Source: Gluconacetobacter diazotrophicus PA1 5 | Lineage (GTDB): Bacteria; Pseudomonadota; Alphaproteobacteria; Acetobacterales; Acetobacteraceae | Assembly: GCF_000021325.1 (NCBI RefSeq) | Contig: NC_011365.1 | Coordinates: 992,001-1,056,000 of the forward strand | Length of the DNA stretch: 64,000 nucleotides | Reading direction: 5' to 3' | Part shown: positions 43,544-60,497 of the stretch, one piece after another | Layout of the letters: every line of letters starts with the position of its first letter | How positions within the stretch are numbered: the stretch's first letter is position 1 | Program-made: the position numbers and the translations under genes | The notes under the pieces: model-generated | What the model was told of the DNA's origin: nothing | Seen by the model: only the letters and a program-made list of their open reading frames with translations | Database searches by the model: none

Positions 43544-46072
43544 TCAGAGCGTGAAATTGACCCGCCCATAATAATATCCGCCCGTCATCGGAACCTGCGA
43601 CGAGAACGTATCATACGGATTCCCCCCAAGCTGATTCAGATAACCGGGAAGCTTGCGTGGGCGGATGTTGAAGATATTGTTGGCACCGACAGCCACATGC
43701 CAGCGCGGGCTTACACGATAGCCGATTTCCAGGTCGGTCAACCAACGCGGCGTATTCTTGAATTGCGCGAAACAGACGCTCGACTGTTCCAACTGTCCAC
43801 CGCCCGGGCATGTCGCGGCCGAAGGCGTCCAGTCCTGATATGTCATCATGCCCGTCGTCTCGCCGTACCGGGTCTGGCGCAGATTAACATCCCAGGCGCC
43901 GACGGTCCAGTAGGCGTTCAGGATGATCTTGCTGCGCGGGAAGCCAGTCGTCAGATAGCCGATATTCTGCGCATTCAGCAGCGGCGAACCTGTGCCGGAC
44001 AGGCCGTTATGCGTCAGCCGGGTACGGTTCAGATCCAACGCCATGGACAGGGCGACATTACCGTACTGGTGCATATGCACCATGTAATCGGCCTTGATGT
44101 CCAAGCCCTGCGTCCGGGTACTGGCACCATTCGTGAAATAATAGGTCTGAACGGAATTTTCCGACTGCTGTGTCAGGGCCGGCAGCGAGACCCCCATCTG
44201 TTCCAGCGCGGCGACGGCAACCGGACCCGTGACGTTGCCCCCCTGCACCACACGGTCGCGAATGTTGATCTGGTAGACATCCGTTTCGATATGAAAGCCA
44301 TCGACCGGTTCCAGAACGATGCCGCCGCTCGCGCTCGTGGACCGTTCCGGCTTCAGGGGCGAAGCACCCGTTGCCGCCGCCTCTGGCGACGAGACCGGCA
44401 ACAGCCCGAGAACGGATGTCGGCCCGACATTGATCGCACTGTAATGCTGCTCGGCCATTGTGGGCGCACGAAAGCCGTTGCTGATGGTCGCCCGCACCCC
44501 GATCCGGCGCGTGAAGTCATAGCGCGTCGAAACCTTGCCGTTTTCGGTGTCGCCGACGTCGGTATAATGTTCGAACCGTCCGGCGAAATCGAGGTCCCAT
44601 TTCCGCGTGGGATGGAAATCGCCATCCAGGTACGCTGCCCAGATATCACGATTCCACTTCCCGGCATCCTGCGGCGTCAGTCCCGCCAATGCCGACGTAC
44701 CGCCATATTCATAAGATGCCGGCTCGCCCGCAGTCACGGTGTACTGTTCCATCCGGCTTTCGCCACCGAATGCCAGTGTCATCGGAACGACGTTGGCGAT
44801 TCTGAAATTCCTTCTGAAGTCGAGGTTGTTCGTCCACTGTGCGAGGCGGAAATTCTCGTTGCGGACGGTGGTCGGTGTGTAGCCTGTCGCGGCATACATA
44901 TTAGGATTGGTGGTATTCTTCGTGCTGATCTTGTCCAGGTCTTCCCCCCAGGTCGTACTCAGGTCCCAGTCGAAGCCGAACAGACGTCCGCCTTTCAAAC
45001 CAAGCGTGGCAGCATAGTCGTCCTCGTCGATCGTCTCCAACGGCGAATAACCAGAGGGGAACAGTTCCGGATTGCTGGCGCTGGTACCGGATGGCAGACG
45101 ATAGTTCTCGTATGCCTCGGCATGGCGGTGCCCATACGTGATCTGGCCGTATAGTTGTATGTCTTCTGTAATCGGCTTGCCGAAATCGATGCCGAGATTC
45201 TCGCGGGTTTCCTCCGGCGTGCTCATGATCTTGTTGGAATCGCCGGGAACGTTCATAGATCCCGTATACAGCTCATTCTGCACGCCGGGCGGGGTGTAAC
45301 CAGCGAGGCGATTATCGAGCGTTTTTGTTACGAAATGGTCGGTATGATAGACTTGGGCGGCAATATGCATATAGCCGTCGCGACCCAGCTTGAACCCGCC
45401 ATCGGCATTGAGCTGATACTGCCAGCCATCACCATTATAGGCGTTCGCACCGGTCTGGGAACTGATGTCGAGACCATGATCCTGCTTCTTGGTGATGATA
45501 TTCACCACGCCGGCAATCGCATCGGACCCGTACATCGCGGCGGCGCCGTCTTCCAGCACCTCGATATGGTCGATCATGTTGGACGGAATCATGTTGAGAT
45601 CGACCGGCGTCGAACCGAAGTTCGGTCCCGCATCGGCATTGATGTTGGCGGTCGTGTGGCGGCGCTTGCCATCGACCAGAACCAGGACCTCATTCGGATT
45701 CAGCCCCCGCATGCGGATGGAGGCCGTCAGCGCCCCCGCATCGTTGCCCATTGTACTGACATTGATCGACGGATAGGTTCTGGTCAGAGCATCCGACAGA
45801 TTCAGCATACCCGAACGACGCAGCGTCGCAGCGGAAAGAACCGTGACGGGGCTTGTGCTTTGACGGGCGTGGCGGTTGCTCGCATGCGTACCGGTCACGA
45901 TCACGTTTTCCTCGCTGGCGGCCGCACGGGTGGGCGAGGCCTTGGCCTTCTTCGCATGCGCGGATTTCTTTGAATCCTGGGCGCTTCCGTCGGCTGTCGC
46001 CGCGACGGACACCCCGGTCCAGAGGCCGAAGGACAGAATCGTGGAATAAAGAGCAAGCTTGCGGATATTCAT
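43544..46072 (-). CDS. TonB-dependent outer-membrane receptor
   Basis: This 842-residue protein has a signal peptide (1 to about 25, MNIRKLALYSTILSFGLWTG), a Lys/Ala-rich linker, the TonB-box region ENVIVTGTH, a plug (about 65-200: SPVTVLSAATLRRSG, IRMRGLNPNEVLVLVDGKRR, EVLEDGAAAMYGSDAIAGVV) and a barrel ending GRVNFTL. The plug is of the large carbohydrate/peptide uptake type, not a classical siderophore form. GGAG lies just before ATG 46072. It is probably co-transcribed with the M20 gene and the aminotransferase. Confidence 0.91.
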   Translation of the reverse strand: MNIRKLALYSTILSFGLWTGVSVAATADGSAQDSKKSAHAKKAKASPTRAAASEENVIVTGTHASNRHARQSTSPVTVLSAATLRRSGMLNLSDALTRTYPSINVSTMGNDAGALTASIRMRGLNPNEVLVLVDGKRRHTTANINADAGPNFGSTPVDLNMIPSNMIDHIEVLEDGAAAMYGSDAIAGVVNIITKKQDHGLDISSQTGANAYNGDGWQYQLNADGGFKLGRDGYMHIAAQVYHTDHFVTKTLDNRLAGYTPPGVQNELYTGSMNVPGDSNKIMSTPEETRENLGIDFGKPITEDIQLYGQITYGHRHAEAYENYRLPSGTSASNPELFPSGYSPLETIDEDDYAATLGLKGGRLFGFDWDLSTTWGEDLDKISTKNTTNPNMYAATGYTPTTVRNENFRLAQWTNNLDFRRNFRIANVVPMTLAFGGESRMEQYTVTAGEPASYEYGGTSALAGLTPQDAGKWNRDIWAAYLDGDFHPTRKWDLDFAGRFEHYTDVGDTENGKVSTRYDFTRRIGVRATISNGFRAPTMAEQHYSAINVGPTSVLGLLPVSSPEAAATGASPLKPERSTSASGGIVLEPVDGFHIETDVYQINIRDRVVQGGNVTGPVAVAALEQMGVSLPALTQQSENSVQTYYFTNGASTRTQGLDIKADYMVHMHQYGNVALSMALDLNRTRLTHNGLSGTGSPLLNAQNIGYLTTGFPRSKIILNAYWTVGAWDVNLRQTRYGETTGMMTYQDWTPSAATCPGGGQLEQSSVCFAQFKNTPRWLTDLEIGYRVSPRWHVAVGANNIFNIRPRKLPGYLNQLGGNPYDTFSSQVPMTGGYYYGRVNFTL

Positions 46073-46147: not shown

Positions 46148-47419
46148 TTATGATTGTGTGCCGGGGCGACCCAGCAGCCGCCACAGGGCGATCGCCACGA
46201 CTTTCGTCGCCCGGCGCATGTCTTCCAGCACCACATGTTCGTCTGCCCGATGGCCGTTGGCGTCCTGGAGGCGACGCGGCCCCGCCCCGTACAGGACGGT
46301 CGGGCATCCGGCATTGCTGTACAGGCGGGCGTCCGTGAACAGGGGCATGCCCTCTGCCGGAATCCGCTCGCCGATCACGGTTTCGGCCGCATCCTGAAGC
46401 GCCGCGACCAGAGGGGCCTGCCGGCTTTCGGGCACCAGCGGAAGCGCCAGAAGATGGCGGCGTACGGCGCAGGTCACTCCCTCTACCGTCACGGCCCGGA
46501 CGATGATGTCGCGCAGTTCCCGCTCCACCTCATCCGCATCCTCGTCCGGCATGATCCGCCGCTCCATCCGGAACGTCGCCTGTTCCGGCACGACGTTCGC
46601 GGCCACGCCGCCGTTGATGGTACCGATGACCAGCGTCGGCGCACCGATACCGGGAATTATGGACGGCCGGGCAGCCAGTGCGTCACGATGGGCGTATAGC
46701 GCCACCATCACGCCACAGGCCGCCTGGATGGCGTCACAGCCGGTGTCGGGCCATGCGGAGTGCGCCGATTTTCCCGTGAACGTCACATCGAGTTGCAGGC
46801 TGCCCTTATGCGCGATCATCACCCCGTAGGTGAACCCGGCGCTGATGACATAATCCGGGCGGGTCAGCCCCTGTTCCAGCAGCCGACCAGGTCCCGCGCT
46901 GCCCCCGGTTTCCTCGTCGTAGGTGAAATGCAGTTCCACCTGCCCTTGCAGGCCCTCGGCATGGGCGTTCAGGGCCCGGAGGGCAAAGGCGAAGGTCGCG
47001 AAATCGGATTTCGAGACTGCCGCCCCCCGTCCGTACAGGCGACCCTCTTCGATCACACCGGCATAGGGATCGTGCGTCCATCCGCCTCCCGGCGGCACCA
47101 CGTCACCATGGGCGTTCAGGGCGACGACCGGGCCGTCCCCGTTTCCGAAGTGCTGCCTGATAATCAGGTTCGTGGCGCTGCGCAGGCCGCTCCGCTCCAG
47201 GACATCCGGGGGCACCACGTCCCGTTCCACTACAAACCCCAGCGTCTCCAGGCGTTCAGTGGCAAAACGGCCGTGCGGCGCGCAATCCCCTGGCGGATTG
47301 TCCGACGGCACGCGCACCAGGTCGCGCAGGAATGCCACCTGCAGCGTATCGAAATCGCGGTCGACGGTTCGTTCGATCCCGTCGCTCGGAATTTTTTCAT
47401 CACTCAGGGTCGCAGACAT
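46148..47419 (-). CDS. M20-family (ArgE/DapE-like) metal-dependent amidohydrolase with a non-canonical metal site
   Basis: This 423-residue protein has the M20 two-domain layout: catalytic H104-G-D106 (NAHGDVVPPG), E169/E170 (TYDEETGG), a lid/dimer domain (about 205-330, starting AHKGSLQLDVTFTGKSAHS) and a C-terminal GHRADEHV. The usual metal-bridging Asp (normally GRGxxDMKGG) is replaced by Val (GRGAAVSKSDF, V135). Substrate class: N-acyl- or N-carbamoyl-amino acids. I chose ATG 47419; an in-frame ATG lies at 47446. It follows an operator-like palindrome. Confidence 0.82.
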   Translation of the reverse strand: MSATLSDEKIPSDGIERTVDRDFDTLQVAFLRDLVRVPSDNPPGDCAPHGRFATERLETLGFVVERDVVPPDVLERSGLRSATNLIIRQHFGNGDGPVVALNAHGDVVPPGGGWTHDPYAGVIEEGRLYGRGAAVSKSDFATFAFALRALNAHAEGLQGQVELHFTYDEETGGSAGPGRLLEQGLTRPDYVISAGFTYGVMIAHKGSLQLDVTFTGKSAHSAWPDTGCDAIQAACGVMVALYAHRDALAARPSIIPGIGAPTLVIGTINGGVAANVVPEQATFRMERRIMPDEDADEVERELRDIIVRAVTVEGVTCAVRRHLLALPLVPESRQAPLVAALQDAAETVIGERIPAEGMPLFTDARLYSNAGCPTVLYGAGPRRLQDANGHRADEHVVLEDMRRATKVVAIALWRLLGRPGTQS

Positions 47420-47462
47420 CGGCCGCCCTTTCGCTCGGATACGCATCACGGTCTTCGTTCTA

Positions 47463-47477
47463 TATGCGATTTGTATA
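47463..47477. promoter_or_regulatory. Palindromic operator TATGC-GATTT-GTATA
   Basis: An inverted repeat TATRC-N5-GTATA lies 44 bp before the M20 start, in an AT-rich patch (TATATGCGATTTGTATACC). A near-identical copy is at 56664-56678 in the divergent promoter. The GTATAC-centred shape is like FCD-type GntR operators, so the regulator at 60498 is the likely binder. Confidence 0.6.
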
Positions 47478-47576
47478 CCGTTCGAATTCAATCGTAAAGC
47501 GAAACAATGGGCGTTCGGCTTTTTATGAATCCTTTCCTGTGACGGTCCTGCGGTCAGGTGCCCGACGGGCGCCGTT

Positions 47577-48295
<719 letters not shown>

Positions 48296-48299
<4 letters not shown>

Positions 48300-51178
48300 G
48301 CGCTGCCTCCATGAAAGCGCCGGGGGGAGAAGACGTCGAGGTCCGCGCGCTGCCTGATGCCAAGGACCATGTCGGCGACGCTGCGCCCCATGGCGGGCGC
48401 CAGCGTGACGCCGTTGGCCGTGACGGCATTGTAGAATCCGGGCACGCCCGGGCTTTCGCCGAGGATCGGCGCCCCGTCGATATCGATGTTCATGGCCGCC
48501 CAGCTCCGCACCACGTGCACGCTGCCCAGCGCCGGCACCAGCCTGCGCGCGACCCACAAATTGCCTTCCAGACTGTCTCGCAACGGGCGCGGATGACCAT
48601 GCACGGGATCCAGTCCGGCGCTCCATCCTCCGCCAATCAGCAACGTACCATTGGCGGCCTGCTTGAGCGTCAGGTGACGGCTGGCGTGGGCCAGCAACGA
48701 ACCGACCAGCGGAGCCACCGGTTCGGTCACCACCATCTGCAGCGGTGCACCGAAGACCGGCAGGCGATGGCCGACCAGGCCCGCGACCTCGCCAGCATAG
48801 GCACCGGCCGCGTTCACCACCGCGCCCGTCGACCAGGCGTGACCGTCCGCGACAACGCGGAATCCGTTCGTCTCGCGCGTGATCGCCGCGACGGGCGATA
48901 ATGGCCGGATGGTGACGCCCGCCTCCCTCGCCCGCGCCATCACCGCCAGCGACGCCGCCATCGGATTGATCTTGCCTTCCTCGGAGCAATAGGCGCCCCC
49001 GGGGAACCCCGTACCCAGTGCCGGCTCGATCGCGCGCAGTTCATGGCTGTCGACCATGCGCGAGGCCACACCCAGCGACTGCTCGACGGCGACTTTCGCC
49101 CGCAGCCGCGTCATGTCGGCCTCGTTTTCGGCCACGGCCAGACCGCCACATACCTTGATTTCCAGGTCCCGGTCGAAAAACGGCACCATGGATTGCCACA
49201 TGCCGATTGCTTCCCGCTGCAGGGCCAACGTCCGCGCCGGCAGGGACGGCCCGTCCACTCCGGCGCTGTCGTCGAAGGCCATGAGCTGGGCATGCAGGCT
49301 GCCGGCATTGCCGCCCGACGCCAGGGCACCGGGGCGTCCGCGCTCCAGCACCACGACGCGACGCCCGGCCTGCGCGAGGAACAGCGCGGCGAACAGGCCC
49401 ACGATCCCCGCGCCGATCACCACCACGTCCGCCACCTGCGCGTTGCCCAACACCGGGGCCGCGACGCCCCCTTCCGGCAGCGCGGAAGGGATTTCCACGC
49501 GCCGGTGTCCCCGCCATTCGGGCTTTTCCACCGCCAGCGCGGCCAGCGGGATCGGGCGCAGCGGCATCTGCGGCGCGGTGAAATCCATCTCGCCGGCCGG
49601 GGCGGGCAGCAGCGCGGCGAGCACGGGCTGGCAGAACCGTCCCTGGCATCGACCCATTCCGGCCCGTGTCGCCCGCTTCAGCGTCGCGATGTCCTGCGCC
49701 CCGTCCCGCGCGCATTGTGCGCGGATCCTGGCCGCCGACAGGGCCTCGCAACGGCACAGGACGGTGTCGTCCGTCGGTTCCGGCAGGTCCGCGACCGGGG
49801 CGTAGAGACGCCACAGCAGGCCCTGGAAATGCTCGCCGCGCCGGAAAAGCCGCCGCGCCGCACGGCTCTCCGCCGCAGGCGCCTTCTTTCCGAACAGGGC
49901 CAGAAGACGCCCGGCGCACAGCGCGCCCTGCGCCTGCGCCAGCGCCGCGCCGCCGAACCGCCCGGCCTCGCCGATGATCGAGACGTCGGCCTGATCGGTC
50001 ATTCCGTCCGGCCGCCGCCCCGCCTCGGGATGCGGTACCGGCCAGCCGGAGACGGAATGGGCACAGCCAAGCAGGCGGGCCAGTTCGTTGGCCGGCACAA
50101 ACCCGTCCCCCAGGCACACCGCGTCCGCCTCCAGTTGGTGCTCACGCCCGTCCGGTCCGGCGATGATCGCGACCTGCGCCCGCTCCGCCCCTTCGATGCG
50201 GACCAGGCGACTGGCCCAGAGCACGGGCACGCTGGCGGCCTTCAGCCGGGACAGGTGCCGTCCGCCGGCCGCAGCCAGCGACGGGGAAGCGACGCTCAGG
50301 CGCACGGCCAGCGCGGGGCGTGTCCAGGGGGGAGGCGCGGCCTCGACCAGCGCCACGACCGATGCCCCCCGCCCGGTCAGTTCGGCGGCCAGTTGCACGT
50401 TCAGCGGCCCGTTCCCGGCGATCACGATCCGGCCCGGCAAGGGCGTGTCATAGGCCCGGAGCATGGTCTGCGCCGCGCCGGTGGTCATCACGCCGGGCAG
50501 GGTCCATCCGGGACGCGGGCGCGGCGCCTCCTGCGCCCCGGTCGCGATGACGACATGGCGCGGCCGGATGTACTCGGCCCGCCCGTGTCGCAGGATACCG
50601 ACACGCAGTTCCGCCCCCTCGCGAAAAGCCCCCCAGACCAGCGTGTCGGTCCAGATCCGCGCGCCACTGTCCTTCAGCGCCGCGATGGCCTCGCTGCCTT
50701 TCAGCGCCTGCCTGTCGGAGGGTCGGCCGCCGACCGCGTTCTGCTTGAAATATTGCCCACCGGGTTCATGCCGTTCGTCCACCACCAGCACGTCCAGTCC
50801 GCCGGCCGCCATCAGACGGCCCGCCACGATCCCCGCCGGCCCGGCCCCGACGACCAGCACGTCGCACCGTTCCTCGCCGATCGCATCGGGCTGCATGCCC
50901 AGCGACATGGCGTCCGCCGCATCCGGCACGGCCCTTGCGCGCCGCACGTCCATGCCTGCCTTCACCGTCGTCATGCAGCCGCGCTGGGACAAACGCCCGT
51001 CGATTTCCAGCAGGCAGTCGTGACAGGCACCGATCCCACACAGCGGGCCGCGTCCCGTGCCGTCAGGCGCCGTACGATGGGCGACGACGCCATGCATCAC
51101 CAGCGCGGCCGTCACGCTCTGTCCCGGCCGGGCCGCCAGATCCTGCCCTTCGAACCGGAAAGCGATCCCGCCTTCCAT
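48296..51178 (-). CDS. Three-part fused HcnABC-like amino/imino-acid dehydrogenase
   Basis: This single 960-residue protein joins the three subunits that are normally separate. A plant-type [2Fe-2S] domain lies at 1-95 (C47-x4-C52-x2-C55...C68). A HcnB-like FAD/NAD-binding half spans 100-460 (GAGPAG at 111-116, PGGQYF). A BFD [2Fe-2S] domain spans about 470-525 (C475-R-C477 and GRCQGRFC). A glycine/D-amino-acid-oxidase FAD domain spans 580-960 (VVIGAGIVGLFAA, ANGTLLIGGGW). Relatives oxidise D-hydroxyproline, opines or other N-alkyl/imino acids and pass electrons to the membrane. Start ATG 51178 shares a base with the permease stop. Confidence 0.9.
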
Positions 51179-51909
51179 CACCGCGCGTCCCGGCTTGCAG
51201 CAGCCATGTCCGGCAGGTCGGCGCCCCCCGCCGACGACAGGCGACGATAGGGCCGTTCGGCATGCCGTTCGATACGGCGTTGCAGGAAATCCCACGCCGT
51301 CGTCATGAAAAGATAATACAGGGCCGCGACCGAAAAGAGTTCCAGCACCATGAACTGGTCCTGCACCAGGATCTGGCTGCGCTGCATCAGCTCTTCCATG
51401 GAAATGACCGACGTGACGCTGGTCGTCTTCAGAAGGCCGTTCACGGAATTGCCCAGCGGCGGGATGATCAGGCGGAACGCCTGCGGAAAGGCGATACGGC
51501 TGGAAATCTGCCATTCATCCATGCCAAGCGCACGCGCGGCCGCGATCTGGCCCGGCGGCACGGCATTCAGCCCGGCCCGGATGATTTCGGCCAGGTAGGC
51601 CGCTTCGTTAAGGCTGAGGCCGATTACCGCGCAGGCCGTCACGCTCAGGCGAATATCCAGTTTCGGCAGGCCCGCATAGATCACGACAAGCTGCACCAGA
51701 AGCGGCGTGCCACGAAACAGCCAGACATAGAAGCGCGCCGGCACCGACAGCACCCGATGACGCGACCGCTTCATGACCGCCAGCGCCAGCCCCAGCAGAC
51801 AGCCGAACACCATCGCCGCGAAGGTCATCCACAACGTGACCAGCGCGCCGCGAAAGATGTACGGGCTTGTAAGGTAAGTGAAGAAACCGTGCCAGTTCCA
51901 GACCTGCAT
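51178..51909 (-). CDS. Polar amino-acid ABC transporter permease
   Basis: This 243-residue HisM/GlnP-type permease has five hydrophobic helices, the FRGTPLLVQL helix typical of polar amino-acid permeases and the EAA loop (ARALGMDEWQISSRIAFPQA). It sits between the binding-protein gene and the fused dehydrogenase. As it has no second permease partner nearby in this half of the operon, it probably works as a homodimer. Confidence 0.9.
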   Translation of the reverse strand: MQVWNWHGFFTYLTSPYIFRGALVTLWMTFAAMVFGCLLGLALAVMKRSRHRVLSVPARFYVWLFRGTPLLVQLVVIYAGLPKLDIRLSVTACAVIGLSLNEAAYLAEIIRAGLNAVPPGQIAAARALGMDEWQISSRIAFPQAFRLIIPPLGNSVNGLLKTTSVTSVISMEELMQRSQILVQDQFMVLELFSVAALYYLFMTTAWDFLQRRIERHAERPYRRLSSAGGADLPDMAAASRDAR

Positions 51910-51926
51910 GTCGGATGCCCTGTCGT

Positions 51927-52772
51927 TCAGTAGCGGTCGGAGAGACAGCCGGGACCGGACGCCTCGATCCTGCCGGGAATCGGGGAAACACCATACGGCG
52001 CCATGATCCGTTCGAGCGTACCATCGGCCTGCATCGCGTTCAGGACGCCGGCGACCCGGTCCGCCAGGGCGGCGTCGCGCAACGCCAGCGCCACGGGCGT
52101 GGGATAGAGGCCATGCAGGTCCCTGCGGACGCCGCCCTGCGCCACCCCCCGCTGCGCCACGGCATCGATCGAGAAGACGGCGAACACCTGGTGCGCGCGC
52201 AGCGCCGCGAAGGCGATGCCCACATTCTGGAACGTCTTGATATCCAGACCCGGTTTCCCCGCCTGCCGCAAAGCGCGGTCGATCTCGCGGGCGTGGCGTT
52301 CCTCGATCCCCCCCATCTCGACGCCGAGCGACCGGCCCGCCAGGTCGTCGACGGTACGCACGACCACAGGCGCGTCATCCGCCACGCTCAGGCTGATGGC
52401 CTGGATCTCGTATGGTACCATGTCCATCAACGCCGCCCGCTGGCGGGTATAGAACATGCCGGTATCGATCACGTCCCACCGCTTTTCCAGCAGCCCCAGC
52501 GTCAGTTGCGCGAAGGATGTGGAAAGAAAGGCAGGCTCCAGACAGAGCCTGCGCGCGATTTCCTGTCCCAGCACGATCCGCATGCCCGACAGATTGCCGT
52601 CCACGCTCATATATTGCAGCGGCGGAAGGGTCGGGTTCGTCGCCATCGTCAGACGTGCCGGCGCGACAAGTCCGGGCACCACCGGGCATGGCGCCGCGTG
52701 GCAGGGGGCGACCGCCACCAGCAACGGAAACGCCATCCAGGCACGGACACGGATCTGTCGCGGCACCTTCAT
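51927..52772 (-). CDS. Polar amino-acid ABC transporter substrate-binding protein
   Basis: This 281-residue SBP_bac_3 protein has a signal peptide (about 1-27, WMAFPLLVAVAPCHA). Its binding-protein start reads ATNPTLPPLQYMSVDGNLSG, and the second lobe (SLGVEMGGIEERHAREID) follows. Its ATG overlaps the lyase stop by ATGA. It delivers an amino-acid-like ligand to the permease at 51178. Confidence 0.88.
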   Translation of the reverse strand: MKVPRQIRVRAWMAFPLLVAVAPCHAAPCPVVPGLVAPARLTMATNPTLPPLQYMSVDGNLSGMRIVLGQEIARRLCLEPAFLSTSFAQLTLGLLEKRWDVIDTGMFYTRQRAALMDMVPYEIQAISLSVADDAPVVVRTVDDLAGRSLGVEMGGIEERHAREIDRALRQAGKPGLDIKTFQNVGIAFAALRAHQVFAVFSIDAVAQRGVAQGGVRRDLHGLYPTPVALALRDAALADRVAGVLNAMQADGTLERIMAPYGVSPIPGRIEASGPGCLSDRY

Positions 52773-53656
52773 GCCTCGACGAAACGCAGGTCGAGGTCGC
52801 GTACGATCTCGAGCGCCTGCGCATCCTGCGCGGCCGGCAGGGGCAGGCGCGGCGGACGCGGCGCCCCCACGTCGAATCCCATATGCTTCAGCAGCGCCTT
52901 CGATCCCGCCACATACCCGCCGCCGCCCACGAAGCGGATCAGCGGCACATGGCGCCGGTAGATCTCGCGCGCCGCGCCGATATCGCGGAAGCCGTCGCAC
53001 AGGGCGAAGATCTGGCTCATGGCGTGGGGCGCCACGTTCGATGCCACGGCGACCCATCCGACGGCGCCTTCGAGAAAACTTTCGAACCCCATGATGCCAC
53101 CGAATACGGTCATCCGGTCCCCGCACAGGCGGATGATGTCCCGCACGCGCGTGACATCCATCGTCGATTCCTTGATCAGGCGGCAATTGTCGATGGTGCC
53201 CAGCCGCGCCACCAGTTCGGGCAACAGGTCCACATTGGCGGTCGCAGGATTGTTGTAGAGCATGATCGGCAGGCCGATCGCATCCGAAACGCGACGATAA
53301 TGGACGAACAGTTCGTCATCGGTCGGCGTCGAATAGAACGGCGGGATGATCATCACGCCGTCCGCCCCCAGCGATTCGGCCTCCCGGCTGTAGCGGATGA
53401 CGTCATCCGTATTCTCGGCGCCCGTTCCAATGAAGACCGGAACCCGCCCCGCGGCCTGGCCGATCACCGTCTCGGCGACCAGTGTCCGTTCATCGTCGGT
53501 CAGCGACAGGAATTCGCCCGTCGAGCCCAGGGGGATCAGTCCGCGAATGCCCTGCGCGATCTGCCAGTCGGTAAAGCGCCGCAGCGCCGGTACGTCGACG
53601 CGGCCACGCCCGTCGAAGGGCGTGATCATGACGGTATAGGTTCCTCGAAATTCCAC
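52769..53656 (-). CDS. DHDPS/NAL-family lyase or deaminase
   Basis: This 295-residue (beta/alpha)8-barrel Schiff-base enzyme has GSTGEF at 44-49, Y134 (LYNNP) and the Schiff-base lysine K162 (LIKEST). The family includes dihydrodipicolinate synthase, N-acetylneuraminate lyase and pyrroline-4-hydroxy-2-carboxylate deaminase. The neighbouring HcnABC-like dehydrogenase favours a deaminase acting on the pyrroline/imine product, as in D-hydroxyproline breakdown, but the other hydroxyproline genes are not here. Start GTG 53656 with AGGAAAGG upstream. Confidence 0.83.
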   Translation of the reverse strand: MEFRGTYTVMITPFDGRGRVDVPALRRFTDWQIAQGIRGLIPLGSTGEFLSLTDDERTLVAETVIGQAAGRVPVFIGTGAENTDDVIRYSREAESLGADGVMIIPPFYSTPTDDELFVHYRRVSDAIGLPIMLYNNPATANVDLLPELVARLGTIDNCRLIKESTMDVTRVRDIIRLCGDRMTVFGGIMGFESFLEGAVGWVAVASNVAPHAMSQIFALCDGFRDIGAAREIYRRHVPLIRFVGGGGYVAGSKALLKHMGFDVGAPRPPRLPLPAAQDAQALEIVRDLDLRFVEA

Positions 53657-53690
53657 GATATTTCCTTTCCTGCCCTGCCAGAACCACACC

Positions 53691-54413
53691 CTAGCGATGG
53701 GCGTTCATGAAGGCCGCGATCGACGGCTCGGCCGCCGGCTGTTCCCCGGCGCCAACGGCGCGGACCCGCCCGTCTTCCAGCAGCACGATGCGGTCGGACA
53801 GCGCGGCCACGGAGTCCATGCCGTGCGAGACCTGGACGATCGTCATCCCCGCCCTTGCCAGGTCCCGCAGCAGGGCCGTCACCTCGGACACCAGACGGGG
53901 ATCGAGGGCCGATGTCGGCTCGTCCAGCAGCAGCAGGTGCGGCCGGGTCATCAGCGCGCGCGCTATCGCCACGCGTTGCTTCTGCCCGCCCGACAGGCGC
54001 GACGGCAGAACGTCGGCCTTGTCCGCCAGGCCCAGCATGCGCAACTGGTTCCGTGCCGTCTCCTCGGCCTCGGCACGGGGGCGCCCGGCCACGACGGTCG
54101 GCGCCAGCGTCAGGTTGCGCAGGACCGACATATGGTCGAACAGGCCGAACTGCTGGAAGACGATCGCCGCACGGGCGCGCAACGCACGGGGGGCGGACGG
54201 GGCGGTCATGTCGATCGCGGCGCCGTCCAGCGTCAGCAGCCCGCTGACGACGGGCTGCAGCCCGATCAGCGCCCGCAGCAATGTGCTCTTCCCCGAACCG
54301 GACGGGCCGATCAGGCTGACGATTTCCCCCCGCCCGACCTGCAGCCCGACATCGCGAAGAATGGCGTGCGTGCCATGGCGAACGGTCACGCCGCGCAGGT
54401 CAAGATAGGGCAA
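53691..54413 (-). CDS. Polar amino-acid ABC transporter ATP-binding protein
   Basis: This 240-residue GlnQ-type ATPase has Walker A GPSGSGKSTLLR, LSGGQKQRVAIARAL, LLLLDEPTSALDPR and VSHGMDSV; Gly replaces Glu in the usual SHEM switch motif. It starts with TTG 54413, supported by GGAGAAACGCC. It overlaps the permease end by 14 bases. It works with the two permeases at 54400 and 55050. Confidence 0.9.
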   Translation of the reverse strand: MPYLDLRGVTVRHGTHAILRDVGLQVGRGEIVSLIGPSGSGKSTLLRALIGLQPVVSGLLTLDGAAIDMTAPSAPRALRARAAIVFQQFGLFDHMSVLRNLTLAPTVVAGRPRAEAEETARNQLRMLGLADKADVLPSRLSGGQKQRVAIARALMTRPHLLLLDEPTSALDPRLVSEVTALLRDLARAGMTIVQVSHGMDSVAALSDRIVLLEDGRVRAVGAGEQPAAEPSIAAFMNAHR

Positions 54414-55053
54414 GGCGTTTCTCCAGCATGCGGCTGAGGCGGGTCAGCGGATAGGACAGGGCGAAATACAGGCCGAGCACGGCCAGGAAGACCTGTATCG
54501 TCGGCAGCCCGCGATTCGACAGGATGACCCCCGCCTGGTTCAGTTCCAGCACCCCGACCTGCGAGGCCAGGGCCGTATCCTTGATGAAGAGCACCAGGTA
54601 GCCGACGGCCGGCGGGACGATCACCGGCAGCGCCTGCGGCACGATCACGTGGCGCCACCGCGCCAGCAGCGGCAGGTTCAGCGTGACGGCGGCCTCGACC
54701 TGATCGGTCGGAACGGACCGGAGCCCACCATGGACGATCTCCGCAATATATCCGGTGGCGATCATCCCGATGGCCCAGATCGCCACCGTCCGTTCCGAAA
54801 CGTCCAGCCCAGCCACGCCGGTCAGGAAGAACACGATATAAAGGGTCACGATGAACGGGACGCGCCGGACCACCTGCACATATCCCGCAGCCAGGAAGCG
54901 CGCGGGCGCGAACACCGGCCCCCGCGCCATCCGCAGGCATGCCAGTGCGGTGCCGCCGGCCAGCCCGGCCAGCCCGCCCGCGACGGACAGCACCACCGTC
55001 ATCCAGAGGGCACGCGCCAGCAGCGCGACGTCGTAATGGGAAAACGCCATCAT
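54400..55053 (-). CDS. Polar amino-acid ABC transporter permease (second of pair)
   Basis: This 217-residue five-helix permease has RVPFIVTLYIVFF and the EAA loop (EAAVTLNLPLLARWRHVIVPQA). Two adjacent ATGs (55053, 55050) fit; the first overlaps the upstream permease stop. It pairs with the permease at 55050 as a GltJ/GltK-like heterodimer. Confidence 0.89.
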   Translation of the reverse strand: MMAFSHYDVALLARALWMTVVLSVAGGLAGLAGGTALACLRMARGPVFAPARFLAAGYVQVVRRVPFIVTLYIVFFLTGVAGLDVSERTVAIWAIGMIATGYIAEIVHGGLRSVPTDQVEAAVTLNLPLLARWRHVIVPQALPVIVPPAVGYLVLFIKDTALASQVGVLELNQAGVILSNRGLPTIQVFLAVLGLYFALSYPLTRLSRMLEKRLALS

Positions 55054-55709
55054 GCCGCGGCCTCGAACAGCCTGCGCCCCAGGGCGAACAGCCCCGTGAG
55101 GGCGACGGACAGCAGCGCATACAGCACCCCGGCCACCAGCATCACCTCCAGAATACGGAAGGTGGTCGACCCGACATCGTACGCGCGCCCCGTCAGATCT
55201 TCGACCCCGAAGATGGACGCCATCGAACTGCCTAGGATCATGATCTGGAAATGATTGGCCAGCGCCGGCGCCATCGTCTGCAGCGCATGGGGAAAGATGA
55301 CGCGCATATAGGCCTGCCGCCGGGTCAGCCCCAGCGAAGCCGCCGCATCGTGATAAAGCGGGGGCACCCGGCCCAGCCCCGTCGTCACGATATCCGCCAG
55401 GTAGGCCGCCGCGTTCAGCGCCATGCCGATGAAGACCGACGCGAATGGAGACACCATGACCCCCAGCAGCGGCAGGCAGTAGAAGATCGCGAAGATCTGC
55501 GAAAGCTGCGGCGTGTTGGTCATGATCGTGCTGTAGATCGTGCTGAACCGCTGCCCCGCCTTCGGCCCCTCGGCGCGCAGGACCGCAAGGCCACCCGCCA
55601 GCAGAAGGCCGGCACCAAAGGACGCGACGGACAGAAGAACCGTCGTCGCGGCGCCCCCCAGCAGGAACGGCAGGCGTTGCAGGACCGGCTGGAAATGCAG
55701 CGCCGTCAT
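55050..55709 (-). CDS. Polar amino-acid ABC transporter permease (first of pair)
   Basis: This 219-residue five-helix permease has TNTPQLSQIFAIFY (the family's RGTP-type loop) and the EAA segment (DAAASLGLTRRQAYMRVIFPHA). The ATG at 55709 overlaps the binding-protein stop by ATGA. It forms the channel with the permease at 54400. Confidence 0.9.
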   Translation of the reverse strand: MTALHFQPVLQRLPFLLGGAATTVLLSVASFGAGLLLAGGLAVLRAEGPKAGQRFSTIYSTIMTNTPQLSQIFAIFYCLPLLGVMVSPFASVFIGMALNAAAYLADIVTTGLGRVPPLYHDAAASLGLTRRQAYMRVIFPHALQTMAPALANHFQIMILGSSMASIFGVEDLTGRAYDVGSTTFRILEVMLVAGVLYALLSVALTGLFALGRRLFEAAA

Positions 55710-56551
55710 GGACGTCCCTCCGCCGGGGTGGCCATGGACACGCCGAACCAGCGACGATAGGCGGCCTGGATTGTTCCATCCCGCTTCAGGTCGGCCAGCG
55801 TCCCGTCGACCACGCGCAGAAGATCGGTGTCGGACTGGGCGACGCCCACGCAATCCTCGCCCGCGGCGGGGGCGAAGCCGCGCTGGATCGTCCATCCGGC
55901 CTGGGGTTCGGCCGCCAGAAACCGGCCGACATATTCGATGACGTCCACCATGGCGTCACCCCGCCCCTGGGCCAGGGCGCGCACGGCATCCGGATAGCTG
56001 CCCAGCAGAAGGATCGGTGCCTTCGGCGCATGCGTCCGCAGGAACGGCACCGCCGTGGAACCCCGGACCTCGACCATCCGCACCCGTCCGGACGCCAGGT
56101 CGTCCAGCCCCCCCACCCTGGATACCGCCGGGGCGATGATGGCGAATTCCTCGGCATAGAGCGGCGCCGAGAACGCAATGGCGGCCGCGCGTTCAGGCGT
56201 GCGGGTCAGCCCACCTAGCACCACGTCCACCTTGCCCGCCATCAGGTAGGGAATGCGCCCGCTCGACGATACCGGAACCAAACGGGGCGACACCCCCAGC
56301 CGCGCCGCCAGCGCGGTTCCGACATCCACGTCGAATCCCTCGATCACGTTGCGCGAATCATATGCCGCCAGCGGCGGAAGCGCCGGGTTGACACCGATAT
56401 TCAGATGACCGCTGGCGCGGATATCGGCCAGCGCCCGCGCCTGGGCGCCCTGGCCGATGCACAGCGGCAAGAGCGACAGGACGCAGCCGGCCAGAATCCC
56501 GCCCACTTTCCGCGCGCCGGAACGCACCCCGGCAGCCTTTGGCCGCGACAT
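55706..56551 (-). CDS. Polar amino-acid ABC transporter substrate-binding protein
   Basis: This 281-residue SBP_bac_3 protein has a signal peptide (hydrophobic GGILAGCVLSLLPLCIG, cut near QARA), the lobe-1 start GHLNIGVNPALPPLAAYDSR, FDVDVGTALAARLG and VDVVLGGLTRTPERAA. I took ATG 56551 as a sensible signal start; the frame is also open from ATGs at 56587 and 56623, so the real N-terminus could be longer. It is the first gene of the nine-gene operon. Confidence 0.85.
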   Translation of the reverse strand: MSRPKAAGVRSGARKVGGILAGCVLSLLPLCIGQGAQARALADIRASGHLNIGVNPALPPLAAYDSRNVIEGFDVDVGTALAARLGVSPRLVPVSSSGRIPYLMAGKVDVVLGGLTRTPERAAAIAFSAPLYAEEFAIIAPAVSRVGGLDDLASGRVRMVEVRGSTAVPFLRTHAPKAPILLLGSYPDAVRALAQGRGDAMVDVIEYVGRFLAAEPQAGWTIQRGFAPAAGEDCVGVAQSDTDLLRVVDGTLADLKRDGTIQAAYRRWFGVSMATPAEGRP

Positions 56552-56663
56552 GCGGAAAACGCGCCCCGGTCGGCCGACACTGCGCATTTTCAGACAGGCT
56601 CTCAAGACTCCGGCTTCCTCCATATTGGATGTTGCGATCCAGGCATCACTGTTCTAAAGAACA

Positions 56664-56678: not shown

Positions 56679-56708
56679 CGATTAAAACACCGTTCAAGGA
56701 AGAGTTTC

Positions 56709-56990
56709 TTGCCCGAACCGATTCCTCCCGGGAACGAAAACCGTTCCGTCCCTTTTCTCTTCGAAGGACGCGCCATGCAGGCGCCAGAGGGCGAACCCCT
56801 GGCCGCCGTCCTGCGGCGGGCGGGAATCGTGGCACTGGGTGTTTCCCCCCGCGACGGCACGCCGCGCGGCGCCTTCTGCTTCATGGGCAGTTGCCAGGAA
56901 TGCCGCGTCCTGATCGACGGCACCCTTGCCTATGCCTGCCGTGCCACGGTGCGGCGGGACATGAAGGTCACAGCCTATGTCGCCTCCTGA
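56709..56990 (+). CDS. HcnA-like [2Fe-2S] small subunit
   Basis: This 93-residue ferredoxin-like subunit has FC-x4-C-x2-C (FCFMGSCQEC) and a fourth Cys in LAYAC, the same spacing as residues 47-68 of the fused protein at 48296. It starts with TTG 56709, after CAAGGAAGAG. It is the first gene of a split three-gene dehydrogenase and carries electrons from the FAD subunits. Confidence 0.85.
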   Translation: MPEPIPPGNENRSVPFLFEGRAMQAPEGEPLAAVLRRAGIVALGVSPRDGTPRGAFCFMGSCQECRVLIDGTLAYACRATVRRDMKVTAYVAS

Positions 56991-58401
56991 CCGCGGCGCG
57001 CTGGTCGTGGTCGGCGGGGGCGTCGCCGGCGCCACCGCCGCCCTGACCATCAGCCGTCACGGCCTGCCGGTCACCCTGGTCGACGAGCAGCCGCAGGCGG
57101 GCGGACAGATCTTTCGCGCACCGACGCCTTATGCACGGCGGCATGTGCCGCCAAACCATGAATTCGCCGGCGGCGACCGTCTGCGCGCCCTGCTGGCAGG
57201 GTCTCGCGTCGAGACGCGCCCCGCTACCCGGGTCTGGGGCGTATCGCCCCGGATGGATCTGGATGTCCTGGGCCCCGACGGCATCGACCAGATCGCCACC
57301 CGGGCCCTGGTCGTGGCGAACGGCGCGACGGAACGCGTCCTGCCCTTCCCCGGCTGGACCGATCCGCGCGTCATCGGATTGGCGGGGGCCAGCATCCTGT
57401 TGCGCAACGCCGGAACCCTGCCCGGCCGGCGTGTCGTGGTCGCGGGCGCCGGCCCCCTGCTCTTTTCCGTCGCCCATCAGGTGATGGAGCTGGGCGGCGA
57501 CGTGGTGGCCGTGGTCGATGCCGGGCGATCCGGCGACTGGCTCCGGCTGGGGACCGCCCTGATGCGGGACCCGGCGCGGCTGCGCCTGGCCGTGCAATGG
57601 ATGACGCGCCTGCGCCTGGCCGGCATCCCGATCCATCACAGGGCCCACATTGCCGCCGTCCATGCCGCCACGGACGGACTGTCCGTCGCGGTCGCGAAAG
57701 CCGGACGGCCGGGAGTGGCCTTCCGGTACGACGATGTGGATGCGGTCGCCTGTGGCCATGGCCTGAAACCCGCCACCTTGCTGACCCGCACGCTGGGCGC
57801 GCGCCACCGTTTCGACGGCGTGGGCGGTTATTGGGAGCCGGAGACGGATTTCTCCGGCCGCACCAGCCGGGCCGGGCTTTATGCGACCGGGGACGCCGCG
57901 GGCATCCGGGGCGCTGCCGTCGCCCGGCTGCGGGGCCTGATCACCGGCCATGCCGTCGCCCTGGACCAGGGGGCCATCACCGCCCGGGATTTCGCACGCC
58001 TGACGCGGCATCCCCGCATGCTGCTGCGCCGGCTGGACCATGTATCGCGGACCATGCTGCCCCTGCTCAACGCCTCCGCGCCGCTGTTCCGCGCCATTCC
58101 AGACGACGCCATCGTCTGTCGCTGCGAACGGGTGCGGGCAGCGACACTCCGCGAGGCCACGGCTACGGGCGCGCGCGACCTCAACCAGGTCAAGGCCTGG
58201 ACCCGCTGCGGCATGGGGCCATGCCAGGGCCGCATGTGCGAAGACGGCGCCCGGGGCGTACTCGCCGCATCCTGCGACCTGTCGCCCGAAGAGGCCGGCA
58301 GTTTCACGCCGCGCACGCCCTTCTTCCCCCTGCCCCTCGCGGCGCTGACCGGGACGTTCGCCTACTCGGACATCCCGCTGCCGAAGGCGGCCCCGCTATG
58401 A
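56977..58401 (+). CDS. HcnB-like FAD/NAD(P) subunit with BFD [2Fe-2S] domain
   Basis: This 474-residue protein has VVGGGVAGATAA at the N-terminus, QAGGQIFRAP, a second nucleotide motif VVAGAGPLLFSVA and GLYATGDAAG. The C-terminal BFD-like cluster has CRC and MGPCQGRMC. It corresponds to residues 100-525 of the fused protein. It overlaps the small-subunit gene by 14 bases and the next gene by four. Confidence 0.88.
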   Translation: MSPPDRGALVVVGGGVAGATAALTISRHGLPVTLVDEQPQAGGQIFRAPTPYARRHVPPNHEFAGGDRLRALLAGSRVETRPATRVWGVSPRMDLDVLGPDGIDQIATRALVVANGATERVLPFPGWTDPRVIGLAGASILLRNAGTLPGRRVVVAGAGPLLFSVAHQVMELGGDVVAVVDAGRSGDWLRLGTALMRDPARLRLAVQWMTRLRLAGIPIHHRAHIAAVHAATDGLSVAVAKAGRPGVAFRYDDVDAVACGHGLKPATLLTRTLGARHRFDGVGGYWEPETDFSGRTSRAGLYATGDAAGIRGAAVARLRGLITGHAVALDQGAITARDFARLTRHPRMLLRRLDHVSRTMLPLLNASAPLFRAIPDDAIVCRCERVRAATLREATATGARDLNQVKAWTRCGMGPCQGRMCEDGARGVLAASCDLSPEEAGSFTPRTPFFPLPLAALTGTFAYSDIPLPKAAPL

Positions 58402-59549
58402 CCGTGAAACCGGCATGGCCCGACGCGCCCATGGATATCGCCGTCATCGGCGGCGGCGTCATGGGGGCGACCACCGCACTGTTCCTGGCACGCGGTGGCA
58501 TGCGCATCGCGCTTCTGGACCGACAGGACCTGTTTCGGGCGGCATCCGGCGTCAATGCCGGCACGCTGACACTGCATATGACGCGTGCGCAGTTGATCCC
58601 CCACGCCATGCGCGGCCGCGAAATGTGGCTGACCAGCAGGGAGTGGCTGGGGGCGGATGTCGGCGCCCTTGCCACGCCCGGCCTGTCCCTGGCCTTCACG
58701 GAAGCCGAGGAAGCCCTGTTACGCGAGCGCGCCAGAATCCGCCAGCAGGCGGGTGCGCCCATCGAAATCGTCCCGCCTGCGCGCGCCGTCGCGATCGAAC
58801 CCGGCCTCAACCCCTCGGTTCGCGCCGCCGCCTATTGCGAACTGGACGGACACATTCCCGCCTACCGCGTCGGCAAGGCCTATGCGCAGGCCCTGGGCCG
58901 AGCCGGCGTGCACCTGTTCGAGCAGTGTGCGGTGGAGGCGATCCACCCTTCCGGCAACGGATACGACATCCATTGCGCGGAACAGGCGCGCCCCCTGGCG
59001 GCCCGGCGCATCGTGCTGGCCGGCGGCGTATGGCTGGAAAAGATGCTGGGCTGGTTCGGCCACACCATTCCCATCCGCTGCCTGATCAACCAGCTCGTCG
59101 TGACGGAAACGATGCCGCAGGTCATGGGCAGCGTCGTCAGCATCGCCAACGGCCTTCTGTCGCTCAAGCAGTTCGCCAACGGCAGCGTCCTGATCGGCGG
59201 GGGCTGGCAGGGCGAAGGCAATATCCATGAAGGTGGCACCCGCGTCATTCCCGAAAACCTGCGCGGCAATGTGCGCCTGGCGCAGCACGTCATCCCGCGC
59301 CTGTCCCAGGCGCAGATCCTTCGGGTATGGCTCGGCCTCGAATCCGAAACGCCGGACGCCATGCCGTTGATCGGCGCCCTGACCCCACGCGACGACGCGT
59401 TCGTGATCGGGTGCGCCCATTCCGGTTTCACCAGCGGCCCGTATATGGGCCGCCTGCTGGCGGAACGCATCCTGGGCGGCACACCGGACCTGAGCGCATT
59501 CGACCCTCACCGCTTTTCCCCGTCCAGCATTCCGGAATCCTCGTCATGA
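58398..59549 (+). CDS. HcnC-like FAD-dependent amino/imino-acid oxidoreductase subunit
   Basis: This 383-residue DAO-family subunit has IAVIGGGVMGATTALFLARGG at residues 14-34, SGVNAGTLTLH, FANGSVLIGGGW and IGCAHSGFTSGP. It equals residues 580-960 of the fused protein in family. Together the three genes (56709-59549) should form a membrane-linked dehydrogenase for a secondary amine or D-amino acid. Confidence 0.88.
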   Translation: MTVKPAWPDAPMDIAVIGGGVMGATTALFLARGGMRIALLDRQDLFRAASGVNAGTLTLHMTRAQLIPHAMRGREMWLTSREWLGADVGALATPGLSLAFTEAEEALLRERARIRQQAGAPIEIVPPARAVAIEPGLNPSVRAAAYCELDGHIPAYRVGKAYAQALGRAGVHLFEQCAVEAIHPSGNGYDIHCAEQARPLAARRIVLAGGVWLEKMLGWFGHTIPIRCLINQLVVTETMPQVMGSVVSIANGLLSLKQFANGSVLIGGGWQGEGNIHEGGTRVIPENLRGNVRLAQHVIPRLSQAQILRVWLGLESETPDAMPLIGALTPRDDAFVIGCAHSGFTSGPYMGRLLAERILGGTPDLSAFDPHRFSPSSIPESSS

Positions 59550-60493
59550 TCCCTGCTTCCGCCACCCCCTTCCGGGGCGTCTATGCCGCGACGCTGCTTC
59601 CCCTGCACGAAGACGGGATGATCGACGCACCCGGCCTGGCCCGCCACATGAAGGACTGTACGTCCTCCCCGGACATCGTGGGTATCCTCTGCAATGGCCA
59701 TGCCGGCGAGAACCACCTGCTGAACCGCGAGGAGAAACGGCTGGTCGTCGAAACCGCCCGGCACGCGATCGGCATGGAGAAGATCATCGTCTCGGGCGTG
59801 CTGTCGGAAGACATCCAGGACGCCTGCCTGCAGGCCCGCGACGCGGTCGATGCCGGGGCGGATGCCCTTCTGGTCTTTCCCCCCTTCTCCTGGGCAGTAT
59901 CGCAGGATGCCGAGGCCATCGTCGCCCATCACCGTGCCATCTGCGAGGCAGTGGATGCGCCGGTCATGCTATACCAGTCGTCGATCGGCACCGGCGGCAT
60001 GGCCTATTCCCTTCCGATCCTGGAACGGCTGCTGCAGCTTCCCCGAATCGTGGCGATCAAGGAGGGAAGCTGGGAGACCAACGCCTATGACCGTCATCGT
60101 CGGCTGGCGGCGCGCGTCGCCCCCCACGTCGAGGTCATGGCCTCGGGCGACGAGCATCTGCTGCCCTGCTTCGCGATTGGAACCACCGGCAGCCTCGTCA
60201 GCCTCGCGGCCATCCTGCCCCGCAGCATCGGCCGGCTGTGGAACGCCGTCCAGGCCCAGGACCTGGACACCGCCCGCCGGGTCCATGCCGCCATCCAGCC
60301 CCTGGCGAACCTGATCTACGGCCGCGCCCCGTCCGGCCGCGCCACGCTGCGCCTGAAAGCCTGCCTGGTCATGCAGAAGACATGGTCGTCCTGCCGGACC
60401 AGGAAGGCATCCGAAGTTCTTTCACCGGAGGAATGGCGGGAATTGTCACAGGCTCTAGAATACGCGCTGGTAATGGAACAGGAACGTGACTGA
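59546..60493 (+). CDS. DHDPS-family lyase or deaminase with GHAGE variant
   Basis: This 315-residue barrel enzyme has Y143 (MLYQSS) and the Schiff-base lysine K172 (AIKEGSWETN). The usual GTTGE becomes GHAGE (51-55), losing the Thr that binds the carboxylate or relays protons in DHDPS. So it is unlikely to be true DHDPS. It is the second such enzyme in the region, next to a second dehydrogenase. ATG 59546 overlaps the dehydrogenase stop. Confidence 0.82.
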   Translation: MIPASATPFRGVYAATLLPLHEDGMIDAPGLARHMKDCTSSPDIVGILCNGHAGENHLLNREEKRLVVETARHAIGMEKIIVSGVLSEDIQDACLQARDAVDAGADALLVFPPFSWAVSQDAEAIVAHHRAICEAVDAPVMLYQSSIGTGGMAYSLPILERLLQLPRIVAIKEGSWETNAYDRHRRLAARVAPHVEVMASGDEHLLPCFAIGTTGSLVSLAAILPRSIGRLWNAVQAQDLDTARRVHAAIQPLANLIYGRAPSGRATLRLKACLVMQKTWSSCRTRKASEVLSPEEWRELSQALEYALVMEQERD

Positions 60494-60497
60494 CACC

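Follow-up and report, generated by a model that had tools for sequence, protein, structure and literature searches.

A one-chain alpha-beta-gamma flavin/iron-sulfur protein of Gluconacetobacter diazotrophicus and its relatives, a probable amino- or imino-acid dehydrogenase

Hydrogen cyanide synthase HcnABC is composed of separate subunits, and presumably has the same domain content as the protein considered here, a single chain of 960 residues encoded at positions 48296 to 51178 (minus strand) of a 64,000-nucleotide stretch of DNA from Gluconacetobacter diazotrophicus PA1 5 (NC_011365.1, positions 992,001 to 1,056,000; this whole stretch is called the window). Described members of the alpha-beta-gamma dehydrogenase class consist of two polypeptides, as in the archaeal L-proline dehydrogenase PDH1, or of three. 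The split opine enzyme OdhABC of Pseudomonas putida and Bradyrhizobium japonicum is a dehydrogenase and not an oxidase, contains FAD, FMN and [2Fe-2S], and assembles three polypeptides into alpha4beta4gamma4, with one [2Fe-2S] cluster per alpha-beta-gamma unit placed in gamma (PMC4575208). The same source states that the opine "oxidases" lack detailed characterisation because their purification is awkward. D-hydroxyproline dehydrogenase (LhpBEF; SCO6289-6291) is likewise made from three genes, accompanied by genes for an epimerase, a GntR regulator and a member of the dihydrodipicolinate synthase (DHDPS) family (PMC6608401). In PDH1, the N-terminal 120 or so residues of alpha correspond to gamma (PMC4575208), so a fusion of gamma to alpha is already known, and beta is separate. 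SoxA of heterotetrameric sarcosine oxidase (TIGR01372; 1vrq, 2gag) resembles the N-terminal half of the fusion, with an FAD domain and an SO_alpha_A3 region, but carries GCV_T (PMC9045290) where the fusion carries DAO.

The fused gene begins with an ATG at 51178, its stop codon ends at 48296, and its translation contains no internal stop. A Pfam scan recovered Fer2_4 (whole-protein E-value 1.5e-19), Pyr_redox_2 (E 1.5e-26), Fer2_BFD (E 3e-8) and DAO (E 2.6e-64), and the chain is divided as follows.

48296..51178, minus strand: fused gamma-alpha-beta flavin/iron-sulfur dehydrogenase, 960 residues (one open frame, Pfam)
50936..51166, minus strand: gamma part, Fer2_4 [2Fe-2S] domain, residues 5-81, with C47, C52, C55 and C68 (Pfam, alignment)
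50051..50863, minus strand: alpha part, Pyr_redox_2 FAD domain, residues 106-376, GxGxxG at 111-116 (Pfam, alignment)
49607..49759, minus strand: BFD-like domain, residues 474-524, with C475, C477, C511 and C516 (Pfam, alignment)
49433..49528, minus strand: alpha-beta linker with EKPEWxGH, residues 551-582 (alignment, motif count)
48368..49429, minus strand: beta part, DAO catalytic domain, residues 584-937, GxGxxG at 589-594 and R891-x-W893 (Pfam, alignment)

A preliminary description of this DNA had placed [2Fe-2S], FAD/NAD, BFD and DAO domains in one 960-residue frame with all cluster cysteines kept. Translation and Pfam bear out the first statement; as to the second, all eight cysteines are present, in gamma as C47-x4-C52-x2-C55-x12-C68 and in the BFD-like domain as C475-x-C477...C511-x4-C516, and all are invariant among 37 aligned fusions. 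The glycines of the beta GxGxxG are G589, G591 and G594, and R891-x-W893 is the FMN-associated Arg-x-Trp. The start codon overlaps the stop of the upstream permease gene by one base (TGATG) and the stop overlaps the next ATG (ATGA), so the gene looks like part of a translationally coupled operon.

The architecture is that of OdhABC on one chain: going by the description of the opine enzyme in PMC4575208, both share the gamma motif C-x4-C-x2-C-x11-12-C, an alpha part with FAD and C-x-C...C-x4-C, and a beta part of DAO type with Arg-x-Trp. The alpha cysteine pairs are separated by 15-20 residues in that paper and by 33 in the fusion; in the alpha subunit of a related split enzyme in the window the distance is 32, or 27 when counted to an additional cysteine. 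A BFD-like [2Fe-2S] cluster is proposed for the fusion from the cysteine motif by itself. An AlphaFold model of the fusion (from a 37-sequence alignment) reached pLDDT 88.8 and pTM 0.91, and a Foldseek search of the PDB with it returned, in order, SoxA 1vrq_A, 1y56_A (TMt 0.80), SoxA 2gag_A and 1y56_B (TMt 0.86), 1y56 being PDH1 of Pyrococcus horikoshii. Both halves of the fusion therefore have a strong fold match in PDH1, whose chain A lacks in the alignment the gamma cysteine motif that the fusion keeps, and whose beta is separate where that of the fusion is joined. By sequence, 1y56_B ranks first (phmmer E 4.9e-23), with 7fgp_A at E 6.1e-13. Membership of the SoxA family is not indicated, as the 16 Pfam families listed include no GCV_T and TIGR01372 scores 102.4 bits against a cut-off of 1164. 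The protein is a fused variant of the known alpha-beta-gamma dehydrogenase class and not a new kind of system. From the fusion itself, its motifs, predicted fold, conservation and gene order, all observed here, we consider it probable that it is a cytoplasmic one-chain flavin/iron-sulfur amino-acid dehydrogenase of the HcnABC/D-hydroxyproline/opine/L-proline class, acting on an amino or imino acid. The earlier label "HcnABC-type" is thus sound for the fused gamma-alpha-beta order, the cofactor motifs and the likeness in sequence and fold to the D-hydroxyproline, opine and L-proline dehydrogenases; HcnABC itself lay outside the comparison.

The conservation of the fusion was read from an alignment of the window protein with 36 of 41 fused loci found in named genomes (L026, L027, L033, L035 and L055 were left out), which takes in none of the more distant fusions of the same family. 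Both GxGxxG motifs and R891-x-W893 are, like the cysteines, invariant in 37 of 37, and the final BFD cysteine and the GxGxxG of beta are 70-77 residues apart throughout. Every segment is under purifying selection: the ratio of nonsynonymous to synonymous change (dN/dS) between the window and Gluconacetobacter asukensis is 0.16 for gamma, 0.22 for alpha, 0.13 for the linker (32 codons) and 0.12 for beta, with 0.19 overall, and it is 0.20 against Gluconobacter sphaericus, where synonymous sites are near saturation. The linker carries a signature of its own: EW..H occurs in 57 of 65 fused frames but in none of the 8 two-gene or 37 three-gene alpha frames, counts in which near-identical species, and some loci retrieved twice, enter separately. 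Of the eight fused frames without it, seven belong to the window's family and retain at most a remnant resembling PEF/PEW or GEF/EEF, and the eighth, L089, has no motif. The fusion is conserved and probably functional.

The long open frame is matched at 90% identity in G. asukensis, at 84% in another genome of the genus and at 38-67% in many other genera. Among 60 genomes near that of the window, 50 gave a match at E<=0.001, in most cases by way of subunits or single domains, while near-full-length matches of 40-90% identity, apart from the genome's own, were found in eight (G003, G011, G030, G017, G032, G024, G016, G014); the match in G026 falls in two pieces within one 1097-residue frame, and those in G022 and G012 are truncated. 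A scan of named genomes placed gamma, alpha and beta in one frame at 41 of 44 loci (L052, L057 and L061 are partial), in Gluconacetobacter, Gluconobacter, Asaia, Komagataeibacter, Devosia and Thalassospira as well as Lichenibacterium, Jannaschia, Kaistia, Granulosicoccus, Vibrio and a Halieaceae metagenome-assembled genome. At the level of the order, 60 of 299 genomes match at E<=1e-60, and by manual count 54 of these do so near full length at a single place; a single stop within the match is listed for five of the 54, that of G030 being the terminal stop and the other four having no assigned position. In the class, 28 of 385 genomes match at E<=1e-50, and in the phylum 10 of 398 match; apart from the genome's own match, two and three of these, respectively, are near full length. 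Plasmids add 592 matching records, at least 14 of them in a single piece over 98-100% of the query among the 40 matches listed, and the full-span matches among those listed include Rhizobium, Aureimonas, Agrobacterium vitis, Azospirillum and Variovorax. Annotated copies are labelled "FAD-dependent oxidoreductase". The one-chain form is an old and widespread family, common in Alphaproteobacteria and rarer across the phylum. Its recurrence as a single long frame in other Gluconacetobacter and in many genera disposes of a sequencing artefact or chance frame, and of the earlier worry about a frameshift or stop between domains. With fusions at 41 of 44 named-genome loci and in 54 of 299 genomes of the order, the suggestion that a full ABC fusion is unusual is not supported; no account of a triple fusion appeared among the listed matches of the partly covered open-access literature, which does not prove its absence.

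The fusion lies in a conserved cluster of transport, lyase and hydrolase genes, 5.5 kb from a divergent three-gene set with the same parts; that set had been reported in the preliminary description and is confirmed by Pfam. Genes for ABC (ATP-binding cassette) transporters and lyases lie between the two.

43544..46072, minus strand: TonB-dependent receptor (adjoins the cluster also in Gluconacetobacter, Gluconobacter and Asaia loci)
46148..47419, minus strand: M20 ArgE/DapE-type deacylase (Pfam and NCBIfam, scanned as 46148-47491; gene call)
47577..48299, minus strand: amino-acid ABC transporter ATPase, downstream of the fusion (gene call; family from sequence and annotated homologues, no Pfam scan)
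51178..51909, minus strand: amino-acid ABC permease, overlapping the fusion start (gene call; family from sequence and annotated homologues)
51927..52772, minus strand: SBP_bac_3 solute-binding protein SBP1 (Pfam, scanned as 51927-52766; gene call)
52769..53689, minus strand: DHDPS-family lyase DapA1 (Pfam, NCBIfam scan)
53691..56527, minus strand: second ABC importer, belonging to the split module and made up of ATPase, two permeases and SBP2 (gene calls; order as in annotated split clusters)
56709..56990, plus strand: split gamma subunit, Fer2_4 (Pfam)
56977..58401, plus strand: split alpha subunit, Pyr_redox_2 and BFD (Pfam)
58398..59549, plus strand: split beta subunit, DAO, R-x-W (Pfam; motif read in sequence)
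59546..60493, plus strand: DHDPS-family lyase DapA2 of the split module (Pfam, scanned as 59573-60493; gene call)
60486..61139, plus strand: GntR/FCD regulator (Pfam)
61178..62572, plus strand: dihydropyrimidinase/D-hydantoinase hydA (Pfam; TIGR02033 488.9 bits, cut-off 393.25)

A promoter scan of 56400-56900 found no promoter-like site and one terminator-like site where 0.6 are expected. The neighbourhoods elsewhere were compared at the 44 loci with a simple codon-usage gene caller and clustering; the loci that miss a homologue include short contigs and L036, where the caller failed. Homologues of DapA1 accompany the fusion at 39 loci, an ABC ATPase at 39, a permease at 34, GntR at 33 and SBP1 at 32, the ATPase, permease and GntR groups mixing fusion and split modules. 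In Rhodobacterales-type loci, with families assigned from one representative each, the genes usually follow one another as M20, SBP1, permease, ATPase, PTE-family protein, DapA1, fusion and DUF3830, and annotated plasmid loci of Azospirillum, Aureimonas and Agrobacterium vitis combine GntR genes, SBP, permease, DapA, fusion, ATPase, hydA and DUF3830. The split module recurs in Pantoea, Acidisoma and Paraburkholderia as SBP2, two permeases and ATPase opposite gamma, alpha, beta and DapA2, with GntR and hydA. That both versions stand under one apparent regulator, as had been supposed, is not shown: the fusion clusters of other taxa have one or two GntR genes and no split set within about 10 kb on each side, and split clusters elsewhere also carry a GntR gene. 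The two modules do tend to occur together. Split beta occurs in 27 of 60 genomes with a fusion-type match and 5 of 239 others, a figure inflated by close relatives; by genus, the counts are 8 of 20 with the fusion and 2 of 45 without (p = 0.0007). In Rhizobium, where both are found on plasmids, some 10 kb separate them in R. rhododendri and 1.5 Mb in R. lusitanum. Gluconobacter potus has, about 7 kb downstream of its fusion, yet another alpha/beta/gamma set of three genes that differs from the others (L024 19742-22646). In Thalassospira (L034 15673-17564) the fusion cluster is bordered by genes for an M55 D-aminopeptidase and an S58 peptidase, which hints at peptides of D-amino acids; beyond this pair lie genes that we take, by eye, to encode an Opp-type transporter.

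The scheme that we propose takes the order of its steps from these neighbours, and its cofactors, direction of electron flow and acceptor from the family. A substrate in amide, ureide or lactone form would enter through the ABC importer, and the hydrolases of the cluster (M20, hydantoinase and, elsewhere, PTE-family) would free the amino acid, the input of the fusion being likely an amino or imino acid so released. The C-terminal DAO domain, with FAD, would remove two electrons at the C-N bond, and these would pass via FMN at the beta/alpha interface (the Arg-x-Trp site), then alpha FAD and the [2Fe-2S] cluster or clusters, to a quinone or other respiratory carrier rather than O2. The imino or 2-oxo acid product would be cleaved or dehydrated by the adjacent Schiff-base lyase DapA1. 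Fusion would fix this electron path within one molecule. The fixed 1:1:1 stoichiometry put forward earlier does follow from fusion, but the split opine enzyme is already about 1:1:1 (PMC4575208), so the advantage of fusion is more likely to lie in assembly than in stoichiometry. Multi-subunit members being awkward to purify, the natural single chain should be more tractable when cofactors are to be counted or a structure determined, and in electrochemical sensing.

Each of the two modules has its own importer and its own DHDPS-like lyase (DapA1 and DapA2 are 22% identical in alignment), as would be expected if their substrates were related but distinct; the two stereoisomers of one compound suggested earlier are a conjecture. 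That the modules treat chemically similar compounds is best supported by their links, formed independently of each other, with a DHDPS-family lyase and in many cases with a hydantoinase. An uncharacterised pathway common to acetic-acid, marine and plant-associated bacteria is indicated by the recurring neighbours, which also place DUF3830 in a metabolic context. A broader proposal, which we offer tentatively and regard as somewhat doubtful, would make the fusion the core of an Alphaproteobacteria-wide pathway for an amino acid derived from a cyclic ureide, lactam or lactone, running through import, opening by hydantoinase, M20 or PTE (with DUF3830), one-chain oxidation and cleavage by DapA1; the split module would serve a sister compound, and the EKPEWxGH linker would be a structural invention of the one-chain form.

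Several points weigh against the assignment to an amino-acid dehydrogenase in a dedicated pathway. The electron acceptor is one that we infer, and no biochemistry was found for any fused member in the partly covered open-access literature. The top Foldseek match by E-value is SoxA (1vrq_A) and not the L-proline dehydrogenase, and the likeness to 1y56 was obtained chain by chain, covering the halves and not the alpha/beta interface of the complex. Of 102 NCBIfam models that match the fusion, the 25 shown all score below their cut-offs, and the BFD-like cysteines may hold no cluster, because the opine dehydrogenase relative is reported to have one cluster per unit. The hydrolase partner differs between clades, so the fusion may not act in one fixed pathway; a more distant split relative in Sulfitobacter (44%) also speaks against a fixed partnership, since the stretch read around it contains a DHDPS gene but neither hydA nor an amino-acid importer. 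In G125, a genome of the same species, about 5.9 kb corresponding to window positions 47553-53453 (ATPase, fusion, permease, SBP1 and most of DapA1) is absent, which suggests that the fusion operon is dispensable; the locus compared is L076 (G125:C3:2801500-2807700), and the difference is one of strain or of assembly. A gene pair at that spot is presumably IS21-like, judged by eye, and another transposase gene, also recognised by eye, interrupts a permease gene of the split module. Split beta is present there, G125 being one of five genomes with split beta and no fusion-type match.

Other members of the class offer more specific roles. An opine or secondary-amine dehydrogenase, splitting an N-carboxyalkyl amino acid into an amino acid and a 2-oxo acid that passes to DapA1, would share its class with OdhABC and OoxAB, would suit the polar amino-acid ABC importer of the cluster, and would agree with the presence of the fusion on Agrobacterium and Rhizobium replicons. 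We nevertheless hold this role unlikely, as the three annotated fusion clusters (Azospirillum, Aureimonas, A. vitis) contain no obvious opine genes, many carriers are, judged by name, acetic-acid or marine bacteria, and the hydantoinase would go unexplained.

Still less probable is a D-hydroxyproline dehydrogenase in the L-hydroxyproline pathway, which runs through an epimerase, the dehydrogenase and a pyrroline-4-hydroxy-2-carboxylate (Pyr4H2C) deaminase of the DHDPS family. The combination of GntR, alpha/beta/gamma and a DHDPS-like lyase reproduces the HypR regulon arrangement of Streptomyces coelicolor (PMC6608401), and 39 of 44 fusion loci have a DHDPS-like neighbour and 33 a GntR-group gene. 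The hydantoinase, M20, PTE and DUF3830 partners, on the other hand, have no place in the hydroxyproline pathway as that paper gives it. Unlike the described D-hydroxyproline systems, the genome of the window has no proline racemase or hydroxyproline epimerase above the Pfam cut-off, the best PF05544 hit scoring 23.7 bits over positions 55-123 of 325 against a cut-off of 27. An epimerase is also absent among the scanned neighbour representatives, most unclustered neighbours falling outside that scan. DapA1 and DapA2 are distant from the Sinorhizobium meliloti gene product that we take by recognition to be HypD, its record being unannotated, with 25% and 22% identity respectively, no closer than they are to other aligned family members. 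Both also lack an Arg that the other DHDPS homologue of the genome (115676) has at the corresponding position. The canonical hydroxyproline route is accordingly disfavoured, on the epimerase below cut-off and the distance from the presumed HypD. L-proline as the only purpose is disfavoured as well, since the window already encodes a PutA-type proline dehydrogenase/aldehyde dehydrogenase (1188 residues, 6549-10115) to which a role with L-proline is assigned by family.

The proximity of the split set raises the possibility that the fusion arose locally, by loss of stop codons in the adjacent operon, leaving two recent copies, and the two do adjoin in Acetobacteraceae loci and in Marinibacterium (L051). 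Trees were built for alpha, beta and both concatenated. Window-piece copies, L002, L010, L012, L052, L057, L061, L065-L071, L073 and Gluconobacter near-copies were dropped from the first two, and L035, L055 and further near-copies also from the third, whose rows were hand-picked to include 5 of 8 two-gene sets and 12 three-gene sets with adjacent beta; named OdhB and OoxB rows and HcnABC sequences are outside all of them. In the alpha tree (88 rows, midpoint root), a branch with SH-aLRT 94 divides all 30 three-gene rows from the fusions and the two-gene rows, the latter lying among the fusions. The beta tree, with 94 rows and glycine oxidase 4ysh as root, unites 50 of 51 fusions with support 93, L089 outside, and sets the window's split beta far off in another group. 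The concatenated tree (67 rows) splits off the three-gene rows at 100, groups the two-gene rows at 96 and groups 49 of 50 fusions at 84, with a long-branched Vibrio row (L058) outside. SH-aLRT on the key branches is moderate (80-94), and the fusions as one clade are not rejected by the approximately unbiased test (p-AU 0.374; 44-row set, simpler model). All three trees thus place split set and fusion in different deep groups, and the nearest relatives of the window's fusion are fusions of other genera. The neighbouring split enzyme is therefore not the source of the fusion, and a local origin, rejected by these trees, is very improbable. What the preliminary description called a "split paralogue" is a related split enzyme nearby. 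The fusions appear to be essentially one group near the two-gene relatives, in which gamma and alpha are fused and beta is separate; a strict single origin is not shown. These relatives suggest an order of subunit fusion, and our reading, which is not proven, is that gamma and alpha may have fused first, as in archaeal PDH1, with beta joining later. A one-chain HCN synthase would match the presumed domain set of HcnABC, but a cluster of importer and lyase genes does not suggest cyanide production from glycine, and we give this function next to no credence.

Several minor features of the window were noted. Just past hydA (62726-63903) there is an insertion sequence about 1.18 kb long whose inverted ends measure 14 bp, and its start (62718-63000) has at least 15 other near-identical copies in the genome. 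Two TonB-dependent receptor genes (39694-42054 and 43544-46072) flank a gene for a class V aminotransferase (42276-43511), and a large Lhr-type helicase of 1294 residues with winged-helix domains is encoded at 13032-16916. Another single-chain redox fusion, a 504-residue protein at 21258-22772, joins Rieske [2Fe-2S] and pyridine nucleotide-disulphide reductase domains.

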